From Motilibacter aurantiacus (lineage in GTDB: Bacteria; Actinomycetota; Actinomycetes; Motilibacterales; Motilibacteraceae): DNA of 64,000 nucleotides. Under the pieces are notes generated by a model. It had not been told where the DNA came from, ran no database searches, and saw only the letters and a program-made list of their open reading frames with translations. Where the stretch lies: contig NZ_JAANNO010000003.1 of assembly GCF_011250645.1 (NCBI RefSeq), positions 404,145 through 468,144 of the forward strand. The letters run 5' to 3'. The translations under genes were made by a program, and so were the position numbers. Positions 3,573 to 10,481 of this stretch are shown here, piece by piece (within the stretch, counting starts at the first letter, position 1; each line of letters opens with the position of its first letter).

Positions 3573-3585
3573 AACCGGAAGGACC

Positions 3586-3651
3586 ATGAGCACAGATCAC
3601 AGACCCTGGGCCGCGCATCCCGAGCTCGCTGAGGCGGTGCGTGGCCGTTGA
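3586..3651 (+). CDS. 21-codon upstream ORF overlapping the CNNM start
   Basis: ATG at 3586 follows GGAAGGA and encodes 21 residues beginning MSTDHRPWAAHPE and ending VRGR, then TGA at 3649-3651. The TGA overlaps the TTG start (3648) of the following CNNM gene in a TTGA junction. The CNNM start has only a weak, distant GAGG (3631), so its translation probably depends on ribosomes finishing this ORF. A second 21-codon ORF, also starting MST, stands at the same place before the other CNNM operon (10259-10324). It may be a regulatory leader peptide; function inferred. Confidence 0.6.
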   Translation: MSTDHRPWAAHPELAEAVRGR

Positions 3652-5126
3652 TCGAAGTGCTCTCCCTGCTGCTCGGGGTGGCGGTGGTCGTGATCATCAC
3701 GGCCGCGACCGGCTACTTCGTGGCGCAGGAGTTCGCCTACATGGCCGTCGACCGGTCCGGGCTGTCCGCCCGGGCCGAGGCCGGTGACGCCGCCTCCGCC
3801 CGTGCGCTCCAGGTCACTCGGCGCACCTCGTTCATGCTGTCGGGCGCGCAGCTCGGCATCACCGTCACCGGCCTGCTCGTCGGCTACGTCGCCGAGCCGC
3901 TGATCGGGGAGTCGCTCAGCACGCTGCTCGGCGGGGTCGCGGTCCCGTCCGGGGTGAGCGTCGCGGTCGGCGCCGTCGCCGCGCTGGTGTTCTCGACGCT
4001 GGTGCAGATGCTCTTCGGCGAGCTGCTGCCGAAGAACCTCGCGATCGCCCGCCCGGAGCCGGTGGCGCTGCGGCTGTCGGGGTCCACGGTGCTCTTCCTG
4101 CGCGTCTTCGGCTGGCTGATCTGGGTGTTCGACCAGGCCTCCATCCTGTTCCTGCGCGCCCTGCGCATCGAGCCCGTGCACGACGTCGAGCACGCCGCGA
4201 CAGCACGCGACCTCGAGCACATCGTCGAGGAGTCGCGCGAGAGCGGGGACCTGCCCGCCGAGCTGTCGATGCTGCTCGACCGCATCCTGGACTTCCCGAA
4301 CCGCCCGGTGGCGCACGCGATGATCCCGCGGCCGCAGGTCGACACGGTCGAGACGACGGCCACCGTCGGCGAGCTGCGCCGGCTCATGGCCTCGGGCCAC
4401 TCGCGCTACCCGGTCCTCGAGGCCGAGCGCGAGGAGGTGGTCGGGGTGGTGCACCTGGCCGACGTGCTCTCGACGGCGTACCCGGACCGCGCGCCGGTGA
4501 CCGACATCGTGCGGCCCTGCCTCTTCGTCTCGACGCTGACCCCGCTGCCGGAGGCGCTGCGCGAGCTGACGGAGAGCAAGAACCAGCTCGCCTGCGTCGT
4601 CGACGAGTACGGCGGGTTCGCGGGTGTGCTCACGGTCGAGGACCTGGCCGAGGAGCTGGTCGGGGAGATCACGGACGAGCACGACGAGGCCCGCCCGGAG
4701 TACGTCCCCGTCGAGGGCGACGGGATCTGGGAGATGCCCGGCGACGTGCACGTGGACGAGGTCGAGCGCGCGCTGGGGGTCGACCTGCCCCGCGGCCGCT
4801 ACGAGACCGTGGCGGGCCTGGTGCTCGCGACCACCGGCAGCCTGCCCGCCCCCGGGGACCGGGTGACGATCCCGCTGCCCGCCGATCCTGCGGACCTGCT
4901 GCTGGACGAGGAGCCGGAGCCGCGGGTGCTGGAGGTCGAGGTGCTCGACGTCGCGAGGCGCGTCCCCGCCCGCGTACGCCTCACGTTGCCCGAGCGCGAG
5001 GGCGAGCCGGTCAGCGCGGACGGCATCGGCGCGGACGGCATCGGCGCGGACGGCATCGGCGCGGACGGAACGGCCGTGGGCCGCATGTCCGCGGCGGGCA
5101 CGAACGACGTGGAGGGCGCCCGATGA
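3648..5126 (+). CDS. CNNM/CorC-type transporter (DUF21-CBS-CBS-CorC_HlyC), long form
   Basis: Encodes 492 residues. Order: DUF21 membrane domain (about 1-190; helix 1 LLLGVAVVVIITAATGYFVAQEF, motif GELLPKNLA), a CBS pair (about 215-340; MIPRPQVDTVE, VVDEYGGFAGVLTVEDL), then a CorC_HlyC domain (about 350-435). This family includes bacterial Mg2+ (and Co2+) exporters such as staphylococcal MpfA and the CorB/CorC proteins; the substrate here is inferred. The start TTG 3648 overlaps the stop of the 21-codon upstream ORF, and the stop overlaps the next gene by ATGA. The tail carries an ADGIG repeat. Confidence 0.9.
   Translation: MIEVLSLLLGVAVVVIITAATGYFVAQEFAYMAVDRSGLSARAEAGDAASARALQVTRRTSFMLSGAQLGITVTGLLVGYVAEPLIGESLSTLLGGVAVPSGVSVAVGAVAALVFSTLVQMLFGELLPKNLAIARPEPVALRLSGSTVLFLRVFGWLIWVFDQASILFLRALRIEPVHDVEHAATARDLEHIVEESRESGDLPAELSMLLDRILDFPNRPVAHAMIPRPQVDTVETTATVGELRRLMASGHSRYPVLEAEREEVVGVVHLADVLSTAYPDRAPVTDIVRPCLFVSTLTPLPEALRELTESKNQLACVVDEYGGFAGVLTVEDLAEELVGEITDEHDEARPEYVPVEGDGIWEMPGDVHVDEVERALGVDLPRGRYETVAGLVLATTGSLPAPGDRVTIPLPADPADLLLDEEPEPRVLEVEVLDVARRVPARVRLTLPEREGEPVSADGIGADGIGADGIGADGTAVGRMSAAGTNDVEGAR
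5016..5068 (+). repeat. 15-bp in-frame tandem repeat (ADGIG)
   Basis: gcggacggcatcggc occurs three times exactly (5016-5030, 5031-5045, 5046-5060), then a partial copy. It encodes an ADGIG repeat in the disordered C-terminal tail of the long CNNM protein. As a multiple of three it can change copy number without a frameshift. Confidence 0.85.
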
Positions 5127-6139
5127 GCGACAACCCGTGGGTCGTCGTGCCCGCCACCCTCGCCATCGTCGCCGCAAGCGCGTTCTTCGTCGCGGTGGAG
5201 TTCGCGGCGCTGGCGGCCAAGCGCCACCGGCTCGAGGACGCGGCGCCGGCGAGCCGGTCGGCCCGCGCGGCCCTGCGCAGCTCCTCGGAGCTGACGTTGC
5301 TGCTGGCCGGGTCGCAGCTGGGCATCACCGCCGCGACCCTCGCGCTCGGCGCGATCAGCAAGCCGGCCGTGCACCACTGGCTGACCCCGCTCTTCGAGGA
5401 CGTGGGGCTCCCCGAGGTCGCGGCGGACGTGGCCGGTTTCGTGCTCGCGCTGGTCGTCGTGACGTTCCTCCACCTCGTCGTCGGTGAGATGACGCCGAAG
5501 TCGTGGGCGATCGCGCATCCCGAGCGGTCGGCCACGCTGCTCGCGCTGCCGATGCGCGGCTTCATGTGGGTGTTCCGCCCGCTGCTGCGCGCGCTCAACG
5601 ATCTGGCGAACCGCCTCGTCCGCGCCGTCGGGGTCGAGCCGGCCGACGAGGTCGCGGTCGGGCACAGCCCCGACGCGCTGCGCCACCTCGTGGAGCACTC
5701 GGCCAACGTCGGCGCGCTCGACGCGGGCTTCTCGGCGCAGCTGGCCGAGGCGCTCAGCATGGAGCGGATGACCGTACGCGAGCTGCTCGGCTCCGGGCAG
5801 GCGCTCGCCGCCGTTCCCCCGGACGCGCTGGTGAAGGACGTGCGCGACATGACGCGGCGTACCGGCCACCTGCGCGTGCTGGTCGGCGAGCCCGGCCGGA
5901 TCACCGCGGTCGTGCACGTCCGCGACACGCTGGCCGCCGAGGACTCGGCCCCGGCCGCGCCCTTCGCCCGGCCGGTGTTCACGCTGGACGCGGGGACGAC
6001 CGTGCACGCCGCGCTACGTCAGATGCGCGAGAGCCGCAACCACCTCGCGGTGGTGACCGACGACGGCCGGGTGGCCGGCGTCGTCACGCTCGCCGACGTG
6101 CTGCGCCGGCTGCTCCCCCGGGCGGGCGTGGCGGCCTGA
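5123..6139 (+). CDS. CNNM-type transporter (DUF21-CBS), short form
   Basis: Encodes 338 residues: a DUF21 membrane domain (about 1-185; FVAVEFAALAAKRHRLE, VVGEMTPKSWAIAHPE) and a CBS pair (about 200-332), but no CorC_HlyC domain. Its ATG overlaps the stop of the long CNNM gene by 4 nt, so the two are translationally coupled and may form a heteromer, as CNNM transporters are dimers (inference). A 16-bp perfect terminator hairpin follows at 6145-6181. Confidence 0.9.
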   Translation: MSDNPWVVVPATLAIVAASAFFVAVEFAALAAKRHRLEDAAPASRSARAALRSSSELTLLLAGSQLGITAATLALGAISKPAVHHWLTPLFEDVGLPEVAADVAGFVLALVVVTFLHLVVGEMTPKSWAIAHPERSATLLALPMRGFMWVFRPLLRALNDLANRLVRAVGVEPADEVAVGHSPDALRHLVEHSANVGALDAGFSAQLAEALSMERMTVRELLGSGQALAAVPPDALVKDVRDMTRRTGHLRVLVGEPGRITAVVHVRDTLAAEDSAPAAPFARPVFTLDAGTTVHAALRQMRESRNHLAVVTDDGRVAGVVTLADVLRRLLPRAGVAA

Positions 6140-6144
6140 CCCCG

Positions 6145-6181
6145 AGCGGCTCCCGCGGCGCACCGCGCCGCGGGAGCCGCT
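6145..6181 (+). terminator. strong hairpin after the first CNNM operon
   Basis: Perfect 16-bp stem: 6145-6160 pairs with 6166-6181 around a 5-nt loop. No T run follows, as is common in high-GC actinobacteria. Confidence 0.8.
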
Positions 6182-6191
6182 GGGAATGCCC

Positions 6192-6197
6192 TACCCT
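6192..6197 (+). promoter_or_regulatory. candidate -10 box (TACCCT) for leader and symporter
   Basis: TACCCT fits the actinobacterial TANNNT -10. It lies after the terminator hairpin and 20 nt before the ribosome-binding site of the leader ORF. No -35 can be claimed because that position falls in the hairpin. Confidence 0.35.
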
Positions 6198-6231
6198 GGC
6201 GCCGAGTTGATTGCCCGGGGAGGTGATTGTC

Positions 6232-6315
6232 GTGCTGCAGATCGTCGTGCGTCCGCTGACGCAGCGCCGGCACGTCGACCTCCTGCGCACGTGCAGCGCG
6301 GCCTGTCGTCCCTGA
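6232..6315 (+). CDS. cysteine-containing leader peptide (attenuation)
   Basis: A 27-codon ORF with GGGGAGG at 6217-6223, 8 nt before GTG 6232 (GTG 6223 is the alternative). The peptide ends QRRHVDLLRTCSAACRP. The RRHxDLxRxxSAxCR signature is that of the small 'putative leader peptides' found before sulphur-assimilation genes in Streptomyces and relatives. Its two Cys codons (6292-6294, 6304-6306) sit just before the stop. A possible anti-Shine-Dalgarno starts 2 nt after the stop (6317-6326) and can pair with the symporter's ribosome-binding site. A ribosome stalled for Cys-tRNA would cover it, so low cysteine should raise symporter translation (inference). Confidence 0.75.
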   Translation: MLQIVVRPLTQRRHVDLLRTCSAACRP

Positions 6316-6316
6316 C

Positions 6317-6379
6317 GACCCCTTCGCCGGCCACCTGCCCCGCAATCCGCTCCCGGCGCCGTCGCGCGCCCGAAAGGTC
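6317..6379 (+). promoter_or_regulatory. possible anti-Shine-Dalgarno / SD sequestering pair
   Basis: gaccccttcg (6317-6326) can pair with cgaaaggtc (6371-6379), which holds the GAAAGG ribosome-binding site 7 nt before ATG 6386. The pairing has one mismatch and one bulge. With the leader peptide ending at 6315, this matches a translational-attenuation layout. Confidence 0.5.
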
Positions 6380-6385
6380 CTGCCC

Positions 6386-7762
6386 ATGCGCGCCCTGCGC
6401 CGCGTCCCCTTCTCCGCCCAAGTCCTGATCGGCCTCGTCCTCGGCGTCGTCCTCGGGCTCGTCGCCCGCTCGATGGGTGACGTCTCCGACGGCAGCCCGA
6501 ACTGGCTGGCCAGCACTCTCGACACCGTCGGCGACCTGTTCGTCAGCCTGCTGCGCGCCGCCGTCGTGCCTCTCGTCCTGACCGCGGTCATCGCGAGCAT
6601 CGCCAACCTGCGCGGCGTCGGCAACGCCGCACGGCTGGCCGCCCAGACCCTGCTCTGGTTCGCGATCACCGCGTTCGTCGCCGTCCTGATCGGCATCGGC
6701 CTCGGACTGGTCCTGCGCCCCGGCGACCACACCTCCGTGACGGAGGACAGCGCCCGCAGTGTGAGCACGATGGGCGACTGGTGGGCCTTCCTCACCGGGC
6801 TCGTGCCCGACAACGTCCTCGGCCTCGAGGCCGACACCTCGGTCACCGACGGCGTCGCCTCGACCAGCCTCTCGTTCAACGTGCTGCAGGTCGTGGTCAT
6901 CGCCGTCGCCCTCGGCATCGCCGCCCTCAAGGTCGGCGAGGCGGCCGAGCCGTTCGTCGGCTTCGTCCAGGCGGCCCTGCAGGTCGTGCAGAAGGTGCTG
7001 TGGTGGATCATCCGCCTCGCGCCGATCGGCAGCGCCGGCCTCATCGGCCACGCGGTCGCCGCGTACGGCTGGGACGCCCTCGGCTCGCTCGGCGTCTTCG
7101 CGCTGGCGGTCTACATCGGCCTGGCGCTGGTCCTCCTCGTCGTCTACCCGGTGGTCCTCAAGGCCAACGGGCTGTCGATCAAGCAGTTCTTCACCGGCGT
7201 CTGGCCCGCGACGTCGCTGGCCTTCGTGTCGCGCTCGTCGCTCGGCACCCTGCCCGTGACCCAGCAGGTGACCGAGCGCAACCTCGGCGTCCCGCGGGCA
7301 TACGCCTCGTTCGCCGTCCCGCTCGGCGCGACCACCAAGATGGACGGCTGCGCCGCGATCTACCCGGCCCTGTCGGCGATCTTCGTCGCGCAGTTCTTCG
7401 GGATCAGCCTCGGGATCACCGACTACCTGCTCGTCGTGCTGGTCTCCGTCGTGGGGTCCGCGGCGACGGCCGGCACCACCGGCGCGACCGTCATGACGAC
7501 GCTCACGCTCTCGACGCTCGGGCTGCCGCTCGAGGGCGTCGGCCTGCTGCTGGCGATCGACCCGATCCTGGACATGGGCCGCACCGCGCTGAACGTGACC
7601 GGCCAGGCTCTCGTCCCCGCGATCGTGGCCAAGCGCGAGGGCATCCTCGACAAGGCGGTCTACGACGCCCCGCGCGGCAGCGACGGCTTCGCGCTCCCCG
7701 TGGACGGCACCCCGGTCGAGGTCCCGGGCCGGCAGCGGGAGGCCGCTCCCGTCCCCGCCTGA
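6386..7762 (+). CDS. DAACS-family Na+/H+ symporter (possible cystine/dicarboxylate importer)
   Basis: Encodes 458 residues of the dicarboxylate/amino acid:cation symporter fold. Hallmarks: the Ser-rich hairpin-1 SRSSLGTLPVT (about 282-292), TM7 TKMDGC (about 317-322; the archetype is NMDGT), hairpin-2 AGTTGATVM (about 360-368) and TM8 DMGRTALNVTG (about 394-404) with its substrate-binding D, R, T and N. These show a functional transporter but do not fix the substrate. The Cys-type leader peptide upstream suggests a sulphur amino acid; TcyP cystine importers belong to this superfamily. That is inference; glutamate or C4-dicarboxylates remain possible. Confidence 0.88.
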   Translation: MRALRRVPFSAQVLIGLVLGVVLGLVARSMGDVSDGSPNWLASTLDTVGDLFVSLLRAAVVPLVLTAVIASIANLRGVGNAARLAAQTLLWFAITAFVAVLIGIGLGLVLRPGDHTSVTEDSARSVSTMGDWWAFLTGLVPDNVLGLEADTSVTDGVASTSLSFNVLQVVVIAVALGIAALKVGEAAEPFVGFVQAALQVVQKVLWWIIRLAPIGSAGLIGHAVAAYGWDALGSLGVFALAVYIGLALVLLVVYPVVLKANGLSIKQFFTGVWPATSLAFVSRSSLGTLPVTQQVTERNLGVPRAYASFAVPLGATTKMDGCAAIYPALSAIFVAQFFGISLGITDYLLVVLVSVVGSAATAGTTGATVMTTLTLSTLGLPLEGVGLLLAIDPILDMGRTALNVTGQALVPAIVAKREGILDKAVYDAPRGSDGFALPVDGTPVEVPGRQREAAPVPA

Positions 7763-7775
7763 CCCTTCGCTCGGC

Positions 7776-7819
7776 CGAACGGCCGCAGCGGCTGCTCCTG
7801 CAGCCGCTGCGGCCGTTCG
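7776..7819. terminator. bidirectional 20-bp perfect hairpin
   Basis: 7776-7795 pairs perfectly with 7800-7819 around a TCCT loop. It lies between the convergent symporter and second CNNM operon and can serve both. Confidence 0.85.
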
Positions 7820-7860
7820 CCGTACCGGGCTCGTACGTCCCGGAGCCGCCCGCGCGAGGG

Positions 7861-8907
7861 CTAGCGGCGCAGCTTCTGCGTCTCGTCGCGGATCTCGCCC
7901 ACCAGCTCCTCGATGACGTCCTCGAGGGCCACGACGCCGACCACGGTGCCGGCCCCGTCGAGCACGCGGGCCAGGTGCGAGCCCGTGCGCTGCATGACGG
8001 TGAGGACCTCGCGCAGCGGGTCGTTGTCCCGCACCGCGGGGAGCGGGCGTACGGCCTCCGGAGGCAGCGGCGCGGCCCGCCGCGCGGGGTCGACCTCGAG
8101 GACGTCCTTGACGTGCACGTAGCCGCTGAACCCACCGGCGCCGTCGCGCACCGGGAAGCGGGAGTACCCCGTGCGAGCCGACAGCTCCTCCACCTGCGCC
8201 CGGGTCAGCCCCGGCTCGATGGCCGTCAGCGAGGCCGTCGGCAGCAGGACCGAGCGGGCGCCGCGCTCCTCGAAGCTGAGCGCCCCCTTGATCAGCCGCT
8301 CCTCGTCCTCCTCCAGCAGGCCCTCCCGACGCGACTCCTCGACCAGCCCGGCCACCTCGTCCCGGGTGAACGCGCTGGTCACCTCGTTCTTCGGCTGGAT
8401 CCGGGCCACCCGGAGGCTGGCGTTGGCCAGCGCGTTGAGCGCGACGATCACCGGGTGGAGCGCGCGCACGACCACCATGAGCGCGGGGCCGAGGACGACG
8501 GCCGCCCGGTCCGGGCCGACCAGGGCGAGGTTCTTCGGCACCATCTCCCCGAGCACGATGTGCAGGAACGCCACGATCGTCAGGGCGATGACGAAGGCGA
8601 TCGGGTGCAGCAGCGCCTCGGGCACGTGCACGTGCTCGAGCGGGATCTCGATGTAGTGCGCGACGGCGGGCTCACCGAGCGAGCCGAGCCCCAGTGAGCA
8701 GACCGTGACCCCGAGCTGGGCGCCGGCCAGCAGGAGGGAGATCTCCTCCATCGCACGCAGGGTCGTGCGGGCGGCGCGCGACCCCGCCTCGGCCCGCGGC
8801 TCGATCGCCGAGCGGCGGGCGCCGACGAGCGCGAACTCCGCGCCCACGAAGAACGCGTTGCCGAGCAGCAGGCCGACCGCGATCGCGATCGCGAGCTCCC
8901 CGCTCAT
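7861..8907 (-). CDS. CNNM-type transporter (DUF21-CBS), short form, second operon
   Basis: Encodes 348 residues: DUF21 membrane domain (about 1-190; NAFFVGAEFALVGARRSAIEPRA, LGEMVPKNLALVGPD) and a CBS pair (about 205-345; VLLPTASLTAIE, VALEDVIEELVGEIRDE). No CorC_HlyC domain, like the short form at 5123. Its start overlaps the upstream long CNNM stop by ATGA. It is the mirror-image counterpart of the first CNNM operon. Metal-ion efflux role inferred from the family. Confidence 0.9.
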   Translation of the reverse strand: MSGELAIAIAVGLLLGNAFFVGAEFALVGARRSAIEPRAEAGSRAARTTLRAMEEISLLLAGAQLGVTVCSLGLGSLGEPAVAHYIEIPLEHVHVPEALLHPIAFVIALTIVAFLHIVLGEMVPKNLALVGPDRAAVVLGPALMVVVRALHPVIVALNALANASLRVARIQPKNEVTSAFTRDEVAGLVEESRREGLLEEDEERLIKGALSFEERGARSVLLPTASLTAIEPGLTRAQVEELSARTGYSRFPVRDGAGGFSGYVHVKDVLEVDPARRAAPLPPEAVRPLPAVRDNDPLREVLTVMQRTGSHLARVLDGAGTVVGVVALEDVIEELVGEIRDETQKLRR

Positions 8908-10262
8908 CGGGCCTCCCTCTCACCGGTGCTGTCGCGCGGTACGCCGACGGCGAGCTCGATGCGGTCCACCCGGTGCCCGTCCATGGCCGCGACGCGCAGG
9001 ACGACGGTCTCGGAGGCCAGGCCGCCGCTGAGCGGGGCCTCGATCTCGACCGCGTCGCCGACCTCGGGCAGCCGGCCAAGCTCGGCGCTGACCAGGCCGG
9101 CGATCGTCTCGTAGTCCTCGTCCTGGGGCAGTTCCACCCCGACGTGGCGGGACGCCTCGTCCGGGCGCAGCTGGCCGGACAGCGACCACGAGCCGTCGGC
9201 GAGGCGGCGCACCGGCGAGGCCCGCTCGTCGTGCTCGTCGATGACGTCGCCGACGAGCTCCTCGATCAGGTCCTCGAGCGTGACGATGCCTGCCACTCCC
9301 CCGAACTCGTCGATGACGATGGCGGCCTGCAGGCCCTGCTTGAGGATGTCCAGCAGAGGGTCGAGCTCGAGGGTGTCCGGCACGAGGACCGGCTCGGCCA
9401 TGACGGAGGTGACGGGCACCCGGGAGCGCCGCTCGTGCGGCACGGCGAGCGCGTGCTTGACGTGGACCACGCCGATCACGTCGTCGGCGGCCCCGCGCAC
9501 CACCGGGAAGCGCGAGCGACCGGTCTCGTTCACCCCGGCCACGACGTCCGCGAGGGTGGCGTCGTCGGCGAGCGTGTGCATCTGGACGCGGGGCGTCATG
9601 GCGTCGCGGGCGCGACGCTCGCCGAAGGCGAAGCTCTGCTGGAGCAGGACGGCGGTCTCGGCCTCGAGCGTCCCCTGCTCGGCTGACCTGCGCACGAGCG
9701 AGACCAGCTCCTGCGGCGAGCGGGCGGACGCGAGCTCCTCCTGCGGCTCGACGCCGAGCCGGCGCAGCAGCGCGTTGGCCGTGCCGTTGAGCAGCCGGAT
9801 CGCGGGGCCGGTGACCGCGGTCGAGACCCGGGAGAAGCGCTGGACGGACTTGGCCGTCTCGATCGGGCGGGCGATGGCGAGGTTCTTGGGCACGAGCTCG
9901 CCGAAGACCATGGTCAGCACGGTGGCCAGCACGAGCGCGAGCGTCACGGACACGGTGCGGACGGCTCGCTCGGAGTCGCTGACGGCCTCCACGAGCGGCT
10001 CGATCAGGCGGGCGATGGCGGGCTCGGACAGGTAGCCGATGAGCAGGTTGGTGACCGTGATGCCCACCTGCGCGCCGGACAGCTGCGTCGACAGCGAGCG
10101 CAGCCCCTCCAGCACTCCCTGTGCCCCCCGGTCGCCGGACTCGGCGGCCTTCTCGACGCTCGCCCGGTCGACGGTGAGGAGCGAGAACTCGGCGGCGACG
10201 TAGGCCCCGCAGGCGACCACCAGCACCAGTGCCAGGGCGAGCGAGACCAGGGCGACCGTCAT
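8904..10262 (-). CDS. CNNM/CorC-type transporter (DUF21-CBS-CBS-CorC_HlyC), long form, second operon
   Basis: Encodes 452 residues: DUF21 (about 1-190; LVVACGAYVAAEFSLLTVDRA, FGELVPKNLAIARP), a CBS pair (about 210-335; MTPRVQMHTL, VIDEFGGVAGIVTLEDL) and CorC_HlyC (about 345-435). ATG 10262 is chosen because the DUF21 helix starts at residue 2 and because it overlaps the stop of a 21-codon upstream ORF by ATGA. No Shine-Dalgarno precedes it, which supports coupling to that ORF. The open frame continues far upstream, but that part is antisense to the beta-helix gene and is not coding. Confidence 0.9.
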   Translation of the reverse strand: MTVALVSLALALVLVVACGAYVAAEFSLLTVDRASVEKAAESGDRGAQGVLEGLRSLSTQLSGAQVGITVTNLLIGYLSEPAIARLIEPLVEAVSDSERAVRTVSVTLALVLATVLTMVFGELVPKNLAIARPIETAKSVQRFSRVSTAVTGPAIRLLNGTANALLRRLGVEPQEELASARSPQELVSLVRRSAEQGTLEAETAVLLQQSFAFGERRARDAMTPRVQMHTLADDATLADVVAGVNETGRSRFPVVRGAADDVIGVVHVKHALAVPHERRSRVPVTSVMAEPVLVPDTLELDPLLDILKQGLQAAIVIDEFGGVAGIVTLEDLIEELVGDVIDEHDERASPVRRLADGSWSLSGQLRPDEASRHVGVELPQDEDYETIAGLVSAELGRLPEVGDAVEIEAPLSGGLASETVVLRVAAMDGHRVDRIELAVGVPRDSTGEREAR

Positions 10263-10324
10263 GTGGCGCCGGACCGGGACGGCGCCACGCGTCTGGAGGG
10301 AGGGTCGTCGGGTGGTGTGCTCAT
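10259..10324 (-). CDS. 21-codon proline-rich upstream ORF of the second CNNM operon
   Basis: ATG at 10324 lies 7 nt after AGGA. It encodes 21 residues beginning MSTPPDDPPSRR and ending SRSGAT; the stop overlaps the CNNM start in an ATGA junction. Length, MST start and position match the ORF at 3586-3651 before the other CNNM operon. The Pro/Asp-rich N-terminus recalls enterobacterial mgtL (MEPDPTPLP...), where low Mg2+ disturbs translation of a Pro/acidic leader and switches on the Mg2+ transporter. A similar role here is inference. Confidence 0.65.
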   Translation of the reverse strand: MSTPPDDPPSRRVAPSRSGAT

Positions 10325-10481
10325 TGCACCATCCTGCCAAGGGCGGGCGGGCCGCGGCGCGGCGAGGGGCGCGGTGCGGGCACGCGCACGGCCCGGGGCG
10401 CACCCGGACATTTCCCGTCCAGCGGGTGACGATGGGATGACTACCCTCCCGGCAGCGGCGGGCGTACCGGAGACTGGGGGC

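Follow-up and report, generated by a model that had tools for sequence, protein, structure and literature searches.

Short open reading frames overlapping CNNM genes are conserved in actinobacteria and may gate their operons by translational coupling

Coupled small open reading frames (ORFs) are already known in mycobacteria. The main text of Shell et al. 2015 (PMC4633059) describes small ORFs of the RTGA type that are overrepresented in these bacteria and often leaderless, and the ORFs studied here resemble them in being short, unannotated and 5′ of a gene whose start is overlapped by their TGA. However, the RTGA ORFs are presented in that text as a genome-wide feature without a conserved target, whereas those described here are tied to CNNM genes across families, have conserved starts and often carry a hairpin close to the CNNM start; CNNM genes were sought in the same main text and not found. 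In the literature searched, we found no account of CNNM/CorC gene regulation in actinobacteria and no mention of Rv1842c, and the CNNM-linked family appears to be undescribed.

Leader ORFs on Mg2+-related genes offer a second comparison. In the enterobacterial MgtL-mgtA system, a short leader ORF with Pro and acidic codons lies on a Mg2+ transport gene, as here. MgtL, however, works by Rho-dependent termination of transcription and its target is an importer gene, whereas the upstream ORFs (uORFs) at CNNM genes overlap the start of an inferred exporter gene, where ribosome drop-off would lower expression; the proposed sensing principle is the same and its sign is opposite. With the direct 4-nt overlap, uORF and CNNM gene are not separated by any leader, unlike at mgtA. 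MgtQ-mgtB of Salmonella (PMC8092293) likewise combines an Asp/Glu uORF with a stem to control a Mg2+ transporter, but the MgtQ stem sequesters the ribosome-binding site and drop-off frees it, whereas completion of the CNNM uORFs is proposed to free the start. In YoaL-mgpA (yoaE) of E. coli and Salmonella (PMC12421838), a leader ORF overlaps the region just upstream of a gene with a CorC domain; mgpA is implicated in Mg2+ efflux and induced by high Mg2+, and a YoaL start mutation lowers translation. MgpA is a TerC-CorC protein of a different lineage and not a CNNM protein. The pe20 leader of M. tuberculosis (PMC12810186) is likewise actinobacterial and Mg2+-related and has a conserved uORF (rv1805A), but it is controlled by an Mbox riboswitch, and a search of the CNNM loci gave no Mbox. 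The NCBI leader-peptide HMMs (NF042934 and kin) matched none of six CNNM uORFs scanned.

The window, a stretch of 64,000 nucleotides of Motilibacter aurantiacus DNA, contains two CNNM operons, each headed by a uORF of 21 codons. On the forward strand, uORF1 (MSTDHRPWAAHPELAEAVRGR; 3586–3651, ATG at 3586, TGA at 3651) shares the 4 nt TTGA with the TTG-initiated first CNNM gene of operon 1 (3648–5126), which is followed by a second (5123–6139). On the reverse strand, uORF2 (MSTPPDDPPSRRVAPSRSGAT; 10259–10324, ATG at 10324, TGA at 10259) shares ATGA with the first CNNM gene of operon 2 (8904–10262), followed by the second (7861–8907). The coordinates and overlaps claimed for these ORFs in a preliminary description proved exact, and both show the overlap of coupled small ORFs, the TTGA of operon 1 not being strictly RTGA. 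Pfam places all four downstream ORFs in the CNNM family, with CNNM, a CBS pair and CorC_HlyC in the first gene of operon 1, CNNM, CBS and CorC_HlyC in the first gene of operon 2, and CNNM and CBS in both second genes. The first genes are paralogs with 39% identity, in agreement with the two paralogous operons described earlier, and the products of both operons are putative Mg2+ exporters. Near its 3′ end, the first gene of operon 1 carries a perfect 15-bp tandem repeat of 3.7 copies (GCGCGGACGGCATCG, 5014–5068), which encodes ADGIG repeats in the C-terminal tail of the protein. The genome to which the window belongs has further single CNNM genes at C3:192632-193165 and C1:322928-323473.

A Shine-Dalgarno (SD) sequence had been claimed for both uORFs. 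That of uORF1 is clear (GGAAGG, 3577–3582, forward strand, 3 nt upstream of the ATG); for uORF2, an AGGA lies 7 nt upstream of the ATG, and it may alternatively belong to the overlapping -10-like element CAGGAT (10331–10336, reverse strand), which ends 6 nt before the uORF start. TTGGCA[CG][CG]AT ends at this same distance from the operon 2 uORF in four of five family genomes, which suggests that the mRNA may be leaderless. The CNNM starts themselves lack good ribosome-binding sites, as had been noted: a GAGG 13 nt upstream is the sole SD candidate in operon 1 and is not a good one, and a search upstream of the operon 2 start gave none.

To follow the uORFs across actinobacteria, CNNM homologs were searched in 60 relatives, in 80 named loci and in three genera. 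A coupled uORF precedes 37 of 41 Streptomyces, 37 of 38 Microbacterium and 36 of 38 Mycobacterium loci (about 95%). Their length varies from 14 to 52 codons in these genera, while 36/37, 36/37 and 34/36 of them, respectively, stay in the same frame relative to CNNM. Counted by distinct length class, the frame is kept in 14/15 classes in Streptomyces (p = 2e-6) and 16/17 in Mycobacterium (p = 3e-7), and the same test gives p = 0.045 in Microbacterium. The retention of frame despite length change provides the strongest evidence for selection on the ORF itself and supports its translation indirectly. The uORF starts are clade-specific, following MGEPPS..RHRA...DHGTEV[TN]R in Streptomyces, MDDPPSCR.SPHRP...GGDA in Microbacterium (with TAGAAT 10 nt upstream) and VPQAPVEA...DAEPSSSRPG.RPG in Mycobacterium, with further variants outside these genera; none of the exact motif patterns is found more than once in a genome or anywhere but at CNNM. 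Stop and start codons overlap at 93 of 114 CNNM loci versus 5 of 27 recA loci, and an SD-preceded uORF overlaps the start at 65 of 114, where shuffling of the upstream DNA gives an expectation of 17.9, and at 0 of 27 recA loci; since the 114 loci are related, the counts are not independent, and recA is a limited yardstick as the sole control family, MgtE (too few matches) and SDF (too few homologs) having been dropped. Judged by this conservation, the uORFs at CNNM operons are real, conserved, CNNM-linked coupled leaders.

Closer to the window, the same-genus comparison covers a single genome (G001), which retains both uORFs with 21 codons each (MSSDHRPRAVHPDPVEGVHGR and VSCAPDEPPSRPLAPPRSGAI), the frame of uORF1 and its SD sequence. 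Between the two genomes, the uORFs and their initiation signals can be aligned at 82–83%, and the DNA just 5′ of these signals aligns poorly. Substitutions at codon positions 1/2/3 number 1/6/4 and 5/3/4 in the two uORFs, compared with 43/31/124 and 30/22/117 in the CNNM genes. The uORFs, unlike CNNM, thus show no third-position bias in this pair, and the whole peptides are therefore not visibly under purifying selection. Across three genera, pN/pS is 0.62–0.80 in the uORFs against 0.29–0.38 in CNNM. The comparison of synonymous with non-synonymous change, which had been put forward as a check on the uORFs, therefore gives no sign of constraint within the genus and a weak one across the three genera; overall peptide constraint appears weak, and uniform purifying selection on the peptide was discarded. 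In the family, a coupled uORF precedes operon 2 in all five genomes, with lengths of 21, 21, 32, 30 and 21 codons, and the operon 1 relatives have uORFs of 20–45 codons with other peptide starts. Since the relatives of each operon differ in length and start, the 21-codon length and the MST start common to uORF1 and uORF2 are probably a coincidence, and the preliminary argument from them against chance and for homology falls away.

The composition of the peptides was assessed in 32 representatives chosen by eye. Positions 2–13 hold 56 acidic residues, compared with 21 ± 4.4 in nucleotide shuffles, and an IRD-like motif occurs in 14 of the 32 versus 1.4 ± 1.1. Against amino-acid shuffles the motif is found in 16 peptides where 8.6 are expected (p = 0.002), and after thinning to 23 peptides in 10 where 6.5 are expected (p = 0.065). 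The acidic content of the uORF N-termini is near that of ordinary proteins; given this and the by-eye sample, what holds robustly is the D/E-P arrangement seen in certain clades. [DE]PP is present in 14/14 Microbacteriaceae-type loci, of which 13 belong to named members and one to an unassigned Actinomycetales MAG (L125); in these loci the Pro codons vary among CCT, CCC and CCG and the serine of [DE]PP(S) switches between AGY and TCN across genera. In the Mycobacterium DAEPS, the Pro column is 100% Pro with three codons in use. As the amino acids stay constant through these codon switches, the sequences support selection on residues in both motifs. The Pro/acidic leaders likened to MgtL in the preliminary description are found often across the CNNM-linked uORFs and in uORF2, which carries PPDDPP early (PDDPPSRR, including [DE]PP), but uORF1 has scattered D, P and E and no tight IRD-like motif. 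A 58-codon candidate uORF in Georgenia (L126), with repeated DAEPPSP blocks, is the most acidic and Pro-rich example among the uORFs examined.

Fold prediction places a hairpin in the 3′ half of each uORF. That of uORF1 (3609–3646, forward strand) stops 1 nt short of the CNNM start codon and has z = -1.75 against shuffles in the window and -3.5 in G001; between the two genomes, a C-G pair changes to U-A by compensation and a G.U pair to G-C, through non-synonymous codon changes (GCG to GTG, CGT to CAC). The 9-bp hairpin of uORF2 (10263–10288, reverse strand) adjoins the CNNM ATG, and 8 of its 9 pairs are kept in G001. Opening the CNNM start region would cost 25.4 kcal/mol in operon 1 versus 15.8 in shuffles, with a smaller rise in operon 2 (16.1 versus 11.7) and none in operon 2 of G001 (9.3 versus 12.1). 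Over 121 nt, the window hairpins are not exceptional against shuffles (z about 0). In 34 representatives, the last 55 nt show more structure than shuffled sequence does (mean z -0.91, s.e. 0.23). The opening cost is raised in Streptomyces (z +1.0) and slightly in Microbacterium, and Mycobacterium shows no excess occlusion (z -0.48), so universal start occlusion was rejected. An SD-containing stem in Microbacterium has 97% pairing and 12 double-change cells versus 4.1, figures inflated by the choice of ten sequences for a visible hairpin. A long-range pairing between uORF start and CNNM SD in Streptomyces was also rejected, as its 3′ side varies uncompensated and alifold gives weak support. In Mycobacterium uORFs such as that of L177, a perfect 5-bp hairpin is formed by GTGCCGCAGGCAC, with which the uORF starts, and a GC-rich one (GCCGGGC...GCCCGGC) encodes RPGxRPG.

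Together, these comparisons suggest, with a probability of about 0.75, that the uORFs are translated and act in cis as leaders, each gating its CNNM operon by obligatory translational coupling. Conservation extends to the ORF, its frame, the overlap and the link to CNNM, and partly to the hairpin. In the window, the overlapping CNNM starts lack a good SD. The coupled RTGA small ORFs of mycobacteria, YoaL ahead of mgpA and mgtQ are known parallels. A ribosome would enter at the uORF, either through its SD or, on a leaderless mRNA, at the 5′ end, and would have to read to the uORF end to open the hairpin just before the CNNM start. It would then presumably re-initiate at the overlapping start.

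The uORF could also be purely a loading platform that brings ribosomes to an SD-less gene, with peptide and Mg2+ irrelevant, for which we see somewhat less than an even chance. Such a role agrees with the weak peptide constraint, with the leaderless-like -10 elements at some uORFs and with the main text of Shell et al. (PMC4633059), where selection is greater on the coupled linkage than on the peptide. It accounts less well for the absence of such uORFs at recA of the same genomes and for the D/E-P residues that persist through codon switches in the Microbacteriaceae type and Mycobacterium. In Streptomyces, moreover, CNNM has its own SD inside the uORF, which would make the uORF unneeded for loading alone.

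For the coupling gate, the favoured input is an MgtL-like, Mg2+-sensitive ribosome drop-off, which we hold only tentatively. At low Mg2+, ribosomes would drop off at the acidic and Pro codons near the uORF start, the hairpin would stay shut and synthesis of the exporter would fall, so that it is made mainly at ample Mg2+; if drop-off occurs, this makes physiological sense. The link to Mg2+ is drawn from the CNNM family role, the acidic/Pro uORF starts and the parallels with the RTGA small ORFs, YoaL and mgtQ. Enriched N-terminal acidic residues and D/E-P motifs are consistent with it, as are the precedents of MgtL EPDP and the Asp/Glu codons of MgtQ (PMC11282234, PMC8092293) and the IRD sequence of Salmonella CorC, corC and mgpA both rising with Mg2+ (PMC12421838). 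These precedents, however, lie outside actinobacteria, the motif is missing in certain clades, among them a second Streptomyces type (L130) and the family member G002 (L051), and the thinned motif test falls short of significance. That the uORFs form an actinobacteria-wide family of Mg2+-sensing leaders, controlling Mg2+ exporters through drop-off and hairpin-gated coupling as a mirror of MgtL and its importer, is slightly more doubtful still.

[DE]PP is a strong ribosome-stalling context. Stalling at D/E-P-P codons, dependent on EF-P, prolyl-tRNA or a drug, might instead hold the hairpin open and induce CNNM, and a ribosome at codon 9 of uORF2 would reach the 5′ arm of the hairpin at codon 13. 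Such translation attenuation is improbable, since an opened CNNM start in the window would still load poorly for lack of an SD and the 4-nt overlap favours re-initiation.

Even less probable is an RNA element, a riboswitch or a protein site, as the conserved unit with the ORF incidental. Besides the hairpins, many uORF positions in Streptomyces, Microbacterium and Mycobacterium are near-invariant nucleotides written in rare codons, which indicates RNA-level constraint alongside that on the peptide; much of the constraint seems to sit on the frame, overlap and RNA hairpin rather than on the whole peptide. But the frame is kept through many length changes, alifold found no strong common fold, and a riboswitch was rejected because Rfam has no match upstream of the CNNM loci searched, including Mbox (ykoK) and other Mg2+ riboswitches. 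Chance ORFs, which open frames and start/stop overlaps make common in GC-rich DNA (the expected 17.9 of 114), can be dismissed given the uORFs in three genera, their retained frame and the excess over shuffles and recA.

A different small ORF lies between the two operons. It has 27 codons (VLQIVVRPLTQRRHVDLLRTCSAACRP; 6232–6315, forward strand), lies 70 nt ahead of a dicarboxylate/cystine-type symporter gene (6386–7762), and matches NF042934 at its 27-bit cut-off and the Cys-rich NF042936 below cut-off. Its sequence is suggestive of a cysteine-sensing leader, and the symporter may therefore carry cystine.

The conserved coupled leader in Streptomyces, Mycobacterium and Microbacterium gives a simple starting point for direct tests of how these bacteria set their Mg2+ export. 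If the Mg2+ reading is true, sensing through ribosome stability would reach beyond enterobacteria and would include exporters.
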